Position numbers and translations under genes: made by a program
Assembly (NCBI GenBank): GCA_016210325.1
Contig: JACQUK010000140.1
Span: 1-35,583, forward strand
Length of the DNA: 35,583 nt
Source: Chloroflexota bacterium
GTDB taxonomy: Bacteria; Chloroflexota; Dehalococcoidia; Lucifugimonadales; HRBIN23
Direction: 5' to 3'
Shown here: piece by piece, positions 51 through 8,347 of the stretch
How positions within the stretch are numbered: the first letter of the stretch is position 1
Layout of the letters: each line of letters opens with the position of its first letter
The notes under the pieces: generated by a model
The model's database searches: none
What the model saw: only the letters and a program-made list of their open reading frames with translations
Told to the model about the DNA's origin: nothing

Positions 51-137
51 GGCGCGGCCACGAAGGATTGAGCACCAGCGCGGTTTCTCCTTCTCTCTTG
101 TTCCAAGGCGTGCCTGTTTTCCCTGGAATCCCCTTGA

Positions 138-160
138 CTTCTGCCTATGCTTGGCAGAAG
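138..160. promoter_or_regulatory. Hyphenated dyad CTTCTGCC-N7-GGCAGAAG (possible operator) adjoining a TTGACT -35-like box at 134-139
   Basis: Perfect 8-bp inverted repeat read directly; located about 50 nt upstream of the 25-aa ORF. Confidence 0.4.
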
Positions 161-207
161 ATTAGTGATTGGGTGGAGCTAACATATGAGGAAAGGGGGT
201 GAACCTT

Positions 208-285
208 ATGTGTCAGACCTGTGCAGCCCATAACAAGGCCAAGCCAGCCCCGGGTAAGCCGGGGACCAAGAAGGGCGGCATGTAG
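208..285 (+). CDS. Small 25-aa CxxC peptide MCQTCAAHNKAKPAPGKPGTKKGGM
   Basis: ATG at 208 with strong SD-like GGAAAGGGGGTGA 5-7 nt upstream, stop TAG 283-285, followed 15 nt later by a strong intrinsic terminator; absent from the supplied ORF track because of size. Confidence 0.6.
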   Translation: MCQTCAAHNKAKPAPGKPGTKKGGM

Positions 286-300
286 CCTTTCCTGGGGAGG

Positions 301-343
301 GTAGAGCAGGCCAGAGAGACACCTCTGGCCTGCTCTACGTTTT
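301..343 (+). terminator. Intrinsic terminator: GTAGAGCAGGCCAGAG-AGACAC-CTCTGGCCTGCTCTAC then GTTTTG
   Basis: Perfect 16-bp stem, 6-nt loop, short T run. Confidence 0.8.
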
Positions 344-7147: not shown

Positions 7148-8347
7148 ATGACCGATACAGCCTCAGCGGTCGTCATTGGTGGCGGCATTGTGGGCGCCAG
7201 CATCGCTCATTTCCTGGCCAAGAAAGGCTTGAAGGGTGTGGTGCTGCTGGAGCGAGACACGGTAGGCAGTGGGGCCACCGGCAAGTCCGGGGCCCTGGTG
7301 CGAATGCACTACACCAACCCGTGGGACGCGGCCCTCGCCATCAAGAGCCTGGAGGTGTTTTCCAACTGGGACGACCTTATCGGTGGCGACGGCGGCTTCC
7401 GCAAGACCGGCTTTCTGTTCGTGGTGGGGCACCATGACAAGGAGAAGCTGGTCAAGAACGTGGACATGCTCCAGAAGTTGGGCGTCAACACGCGGGTCAT
7501 CTCGCCCGAGGAGGTAAAGGTCCTCCAGCCCTTCTGCTCCGCAGAGGACATCGGCGCTGCCGCCTACGAGCCTGACAGTGGCTATGGCGATGGCTACTCC
7601 GCGGCCACGGGCATGGCCCGCCGCGCCAGGGAGCTAGGGGCCAGGGTCCAGCAGGGCGTGAAGGCCGTCAGCATCCTGACGCGCAGTGACAAGGTAGTAG
7701 GCGTGGAGACCACCCAGGGCGTTATTGACACACCAGTGGCTGTCATTGCCGCCGGCGCCTGGTCTGCCCAGCTTGCGCGCACCGCTGGGGTGGACTTGCC
7801 AGTTGTAGGTGTTCAGCACACCGCTGGAGTGCTGGAGCGGCCCCCCGCGCTGGCCCAGCCCCACATGGCCTTTATTGACCGGTCCATCGGCACCTACTTC
7901 CGGCCCGACGTGGGCGCCCTGACCCACGTGGGCATCCGTCCCCCCCAACGTACTGGCACCATTGAGGTGGACCCCGACAACTTTGATGCGAATATCCCGA
8001 CCGAGTGGAAGGTATATACGGCCCTTCGGCTCATCCGGCGTGTCCCCGCCATGGCAGACGCACTGTGGCGACGCGCCTGGACGGGGGTGGACGGCCACAG
8101 CCCCGACGGCCATATGATTCTGGACAAGGCGCCGGGGATAGTGGGCCTGTACATCGCTGCTGGCATGAGTGGCACTGGGTTCAAGACAGGCCCCGCAGTG
8201 GGTCTGGCAATGGCGGAGTTGGTCCTGGAGGGCCAGGCCAAGTCAGTAGACATCCATGCCTTCCGGCTGGGCCGTTTTGCGGAGGGCAAGCCCATTGTTG
8301 CCCAGCACGAGTACGTAGTGCCGCCCTTCAAGGCAGTTGGGGTCTAG
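7148..8347 (+). CDS. FAD-dependent oxidoreductase, DAO family (sarcosine oxidase beta/glycine oxidase-like)
   Basis: ASAVVIGGGIVGASIAHFLAKKGLKGVVLLERD dinucleotide-binding fold; C-terminal GLYIAAGMSGTGFKTGPAVGLAMAELV. Confidence 0.88.
   Translation: MTDTASAVVIGGGIVGASIAHFLAKKGLKGVVLLERDTVGSGATGKSGALVRMHYTNPWDAALAIKSLEVFSNWDDLIGGDGGFRKTGFLFVVGHHDKEKLVKNVDMLQKLGVNTRVISPEEVKVLQPFCSAEDIGAAAYEPDSGYGDGYSAATGMARRARELGARVQQGVKAVSILTRSDKVVGVETTQGVIDTPVAVIAAGAWSAQLARTAGVDLPVVGVQHTAGVLERPPALAQPHMAFIDRSIGTYFRPDVGALTHVGIRPPQRTGTIEVDPDNFDANIPTEWKVYTALRLIRRVPAMADALWRRAWTGVDGHSPDGHMILDKAPGIVGLYIAAGMSGTGFKTGPAVGLAMAELVLEGQAKSVDIHAFRLGRFAEGKPIVAQHEYVVPPFKAVGV

Follow-up and report, generated by a model that had tools for sequence, protein, structure and literature searches.

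A 25-codon gene of a Chloroflexota bacterium from a scattered and apparently undescribed family of micro-proteins with a candidate metal site

Results

The window, by which we mean the whole stretch of 35,583 nt that was analysed (contig JACQUK010000140.1 of a Chloroflexota bacterium), carries a micro-ORF on the forward strand at 208-285, stop codon included. Direct reading placed the start codon ATG at 208 and the stop codon TAG at 283-285, with 25 codons encoding the peptide MCQTCAAHNKAKPAPGKPGTKKGGM, and a Shine-Dalgarno (SD) sequence, GGAAAGGGGGTGA, at 190-202 on the forward strand, where homologues carry AAAGGAGGTGA. Downstream, at 301-338 on the same strand, the arms GTAGAGCAGGCCAGAG and CTCTGGCCTGCTCTAC form an intrinsic-terminator hairpin of 16 perfect pairs with a 6-nt loop, followed by GTTTTG, its stem beginning 15 nt after the stop codon. 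An earlier reading of this DNA from its letters alone (the sequence-only reading) had proposed the ORF, a strong SD and a perfect terminator stem, and all three were found at the places that it had given. The hairpin was not equalled in 200 shuffles, and the folding of region 120-350 had z = -5.1 against shuffles. An Rfam scan gave only sub-threshold matches of miRNA models to the hairpin, and the idea that the stem is a dispersed repeat was rejected, as no second copy was present within the window. The peptide was single-copy in a search of the source genome. In the RNA fold, at window positions 182-216, the SD lay in a loop and the start codon was paired within a 10-bp stem, as part of its 3' arm, an arrangement that was not seen as a common feature in the folds of homologues.

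Upstream of the SD lies a -35-like box, TTGACT, at 134-139, followed after 17 nt by a -10-like box, GAAGAT, at 157-162, both on the forward strand. The TTGACT box had been picked out earlier and fits a promoter with this spacing; in homologues the corresponding position is occupied by TTGACA. By itself the window promoter is weak in the source genome (P = 0.28), and a strict promoter scan found none, but a promoter-like site recurs across the family: 12 of 18 members have a sigma-70-like promoter whose -10 box lies 25-55 nt upstream of ATG, whereas 500 mononucleotide shuffles gave 2.0 on average and never more than 6. The 8-bp dyad CTTCTGCC-N7-GGCAGAAG, which had been reported beside the TTGACT box, does exist at exactly 138-160, within the promoter spacer, but a functional role for it was not supported, the promoters of homologues being without it, and the dyad was rejected as an operator on the same ground. 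Taken by itself the dyad is unremarkable: matches with three mismatches or fewer arose in 33 of 100 shuffled windows, the observed dyad having none.

Among 98 relatives searched, homologues of the peptide (MCATCATHNKAGGKKPATKKGGKM, MCATCAAHNKAGGKPAAPKKGGKM and MCATCATHNKAGGKKPATTKKGGKM) were found in three genomes of a single genus, g30, which belongs to another family of the same order. They were first found by a single-sequence search, with E-values of 0.003-0.03. In a profile search they scored 4e-14 to 4e-12 and the next match in the order 0.014, but these profile E-values overstate independence, since the profile was built from four sequences, namely the window peptide and the same three homologues. 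All three g30 genes have AAAGGAGGTGA before the ATG and, upstream, TTGACA spaced 17 nt from a -10-like box, and all three have a strong hairpin with a T-run shortly 3' of the stop. Codon changes within g30 amounted to 7-10 synonymous against 0-3 non-synonymous per pair. Between the window gene and the g30 genes, dN/dS was about 0.08 in two of the three pairs, with synonymous sites near saturation, and a weaker 0.54 with the third. The sequence-only reading had looked to related genomes for a judgement on the ORF; it is indeed conserved there, with substitutions biased towards synonymous ones, and its translation is strongly supported by this conservation, which is the chief evidence that the gene is real.

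The wider family was traced with pattern scans. An order scan with SD, ATG, Cys2 and Cys5 fixed, and the reversed pattern as control, returned the four known members and one other, G039 (MCSTCGCSVRGEREKPKPKAK), with 0 control matches. The phylum scan added one further true-looking member, MCDNCVSHAAKKVEKKGEKKPVKK; its remaining six matches are apparently due to chance or to longer proteins, and the control gave three. In a class scan of 393 genomes, in which only SD, ATG, Cys2, Cys5 and His8 were fixed, 21 places in 18 genomes were matched, with 0 control matches; 15 of these were micro-ORFs of 13-32 aa (14 genomes) and six were proteins of about 280 aa. With two more g30 members, the 15 micro-ORFs make up a family of 17 peptides, which come from 16 genomes belonging to 11 taxonomic families. 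Its pattern is M-C-x-T-C-x-x-H-[N/A]- followed by a Lys-rich tail, over a length of 13-32 residues, the smallest member being MCATCAKHNPKKK (13 aa).

The start Met, Cys2, Cys5 and His8 are all present in the window peptide and are the same residues that were used to find most members, just as a strong SD is both a family trait and a scan criterion. The window peptide also has the Lys-rich tail and a total length within 13-32 aa, neither of which was a scan criterion. Thr4 occurs in 15 and Ala6 in 11 of the 17 peptides, counts per residue that ignore kinship among members; these two residues, the short length and the tail lie outside the class-scan criteria and therefore provide independent evidence. 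The tails consist of 38% Lys, 17% Ala and 13% Pro, and net peptide charge ranges from +4 to +10. The CxxC motif by which the peptide was originally characterised was thus correct as far as it went but incomplete, the conserved unit being Cys2-x2-Cys5-x2-His8 with a Lys-rich tail.

The distribution is patchy, with the strict pattern in 14 of the 393 class genomes, which argues against a core function; this spread is a minimum, since the patterns require a near-consensus SD. A scan without the SD in a sample of 96 relatives found only the window and g30 members, and missed G001, apparently through the third base at codon 9. The SD pattern was not found in 16 genomes, nearly all of other phyla, nor was there a match in the plasmid sequences searched. 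Matches to MCx[ST]CxxHNK outside Chloroflexota were set aside as chance-like, having neither a good SD nor a long Lys tail. No family covering the micro-protein was found in Pfam, NCBIfam, PHROG or PDB, so that the suggestion of an undescribed gene stands with respect to these libraries, and a literature search for CXXCXXH or CX2CX2H micro-peptides found nothing relevant. Separately, a Paceibacterota contig (L022) has near 7417 a Cys-rich ORF of 30 aa, MCGTCDTHNKEEVKACPSCKEEGCDGSCSK; its SD is weak, and it is perhaps an independent metal-binding micro-gene.

The next gene in the window, at about 500-1944 on the same strand, encodes a membrane protein whose C-terminal DNA-binding domain is of the OmpR type (PF00486), and the terminator separates the micro-gene from it. 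In homologues the neighbours are unrelated between lineages and often lie on the opposite strand. The g30 neighbours are alpha/beta hydrolase-like and TenA-like genes (named by eye), and in one genus only, the micro-gene has a MerR-type regulator gene ahead of it on its own strand (L106:9730-10152 and L108:8486-8908). Three members, two from G128 and one from G104 and representing two families, are each followed on the same strand, after 13 to 126 nt, by a tRNA-Ala(TGC) gene (L101:4210-4373, L102:9031-9194 and L099:4816-5071). A general link to tRNA-Ala(TGC) was rejected, as four other carriers have no micro-ORF upstream of their tRNA-Ala(TGC)-like genes. A comparison of the neighbours by eye revealed no recurrent metal transporter or metal regulator next to the gene. 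Inspection of the 3' flanks showed a clear or terminator-like hairpin after the stop in roughly half of the family members. Since the neighbours differ between lineages, the micro-gene stands as its own unit, and the independent transcription unit for a CxxC micro-protein that had been proposed is upheld by the same promoter-SD-ORF-terminator layout, conserved in homologues.

Discussion

These comparisons indicate that the 25-aa gene is real and is one of a scattered, apparently undescribed family of bacterial micro-proteins. The traits seen at the sequence level are a conserved start, the SD, Cys2, Cys5, His8, a Lys-rich tail and variable neighbours. The reading that we prefer, with a probability of about 0.45, is that of a monocistronic gene from a lineage-restricted family, the product of which would bind a soft metal through an N-terminal Cys-Cys-His set and its alpha-amine and would carry a cationic tail. 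Cys is a permitted residue after Met for methionine aminopeptidase, and this enzyme would be expected to remove Met1. The freed alpha-amine, two thiolates and the imidazole could then form a small S2N2 site, suited to a soft or borderline metal such as Zn, Cu or Ni, while the tail, presumably disordered, would hold the peptide on a polyanion (RNA, DNA or the ribosome) or dock it on a partner. On the present analysis a metal ion is probably held by the family peptides. More tentatively, the mature N-terminal Cys, the second Cys and the His may make up a minimal metal site on one strand, attached to a cationic tail, which would place these peptides among the smallest encoded metal carriers.

The Cys and His residues of a 25-aa peptide could, instead, serve redox chemistry or modification. 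If the product were a thiol or redox peptide made on the ribosome, it would cycle its CxTC between dithiol and disulfide and act as a buffer or docking thiol, with the His lowering the thiol pKa. Such a role is suggested by a CxxC that does not vary among the 18 peptides, although for most of them it was a scan criterion, by the nearly invariant Thr4, which was not selected, and by the strong SD, which suggests high output. However, the fixed distance of His8 from Cys5 fits metal binding better and the comparison of neighbours showed no recurrent reductase, and we regard a redox role as unlikely.

We are similarly doubtful of a mini-protein that binds nucleic acid or the ribosome, in which half a zinc site would serve as a structural clasp and which, with its histone-like KPAK tail, would act on the nucleoid, the ribosome or RNA. 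The charge and Lys-Ala-Pro composition of the tail, and the three members just before tRNA-Ala(TGC) in two families, are in keeping with such a role; the patchy distribution, the other carriers without such a micro-ORF beside their tRNA-Ala genes and the scant space for a fold in the 13-aa member all speak against it.

If the product were matured from a precursor into a modified peptide (RiPP) or a secreted signal, the short length, conserved head and variable tail would fit, yet no modification enzyme, protease or exporter was seen to recur nearby (by eye, few neighbours having been run against family libraries) and no signal sequence is apparent, which makes this origin improbable. The sequence-only reading had also offered a regulatory leader peptide acting on the downstream membrane regulator. 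In favour of such a leader, or of an attenuator, the OmpR-type gene is indeed next on the same strand, behind a hairpin that could attenuate. The neighbours vary between lineages, however, so that the downstream gene is not a partner elsewhere; about half of the members have a hairpin behind the stop, selection acts on the amino acids, and the residues do not form a codon run typical of attenuators. This role is very improbable, the gene context having largely refuted it. Least credible of all is a chance ORF inside a non-coding small-RNA gene, for although the RNA structure is strong, the amino acids are conserved over 11 families, the start and SD are conserved and the control of the class scan gave no matches; the existence of the family refutes this reading.

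A metal-binding micro-protein is, in our analysis, the likeliest specific mechanism. If it is true, the family would represent a minimal metal carrier, with members down to 13 residues, found patchily through a class of Chloroflexota. Proteins this short fall under most gene-caller limits, and a family that brings its own promoters, ribosome sites and terminators thus apparently went unnamed. The present gene adds a case in which comparative genomics alone can support a micro-gene that is poor in context. With a complete gene of 13-32 codons and three invariant candidate ligands, the family is also a cheap and directly testable system.

Comparison with known systems

Global smORF catalogues such as GMSC predict ORFs from 30 nt upward (PMC11364881), and members of the family may therefore be listed there unnamed, in entries that carry no function. 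The zinc-finger micro-proteins of Haloferax volcanii, for example HVO_0758, are archaeal, under 70 aa and have two C(P)XCG motifs (PMC10716476); they are likewise very small and stand-alone with CxxC-type metal ligands, whereas the family described here has one CxxC and one His in 13-32 aa, not two motifs.

Closer to hand, 4Fe-4S proteins of about 280 aa that begin MC[ED][FM]CxxHGxG have the same MCxxCxxH start and SD and occur in the same class. They are long, in contrast, and without a Lys tail, and share no more than the start with the micro-proteins. These ORFs (L077, L078, L080, L081, L091 and L093) start near 1513 on the forward or reverse strand, and the one of the six run against Pfam has C-terminal Fer4 domains.

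Escherichia coli HypB binds Ni(II) via Cys2, Cys5, Cys7 and its N-terminal amine (PMC7055735). It is the nearest precedent for the micro-proteins, and their metal site is proposed by analogy with it. This high-affinity N-terminal nickel site (CXXCGC) and the micro-proteins share Cys2 and Cys5 right after the start Met, and G039, with MCSTCGC, has the exact Cys2/Cys5/Cys7 spacing. All other members, by contrast, have His8 in place of Cys7, the window peptide (MCQTCAAH) among them, and at 13-32 aa the micro-proteins are without the G3E GTPase domain, the window peptide giving no NCBIfam or Pfam match. Of 17 carrier genomes, only 4 have a HypB that scores over the cut-off, and the other 13, the window's own included, have none that does; a nickel or hydrogenase link was dropped on this ground. 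A role in hydrogenase maturation is thus unlikely, and what the micro-proteins have in common with HypB is the likeness of a site and not of a pathway.
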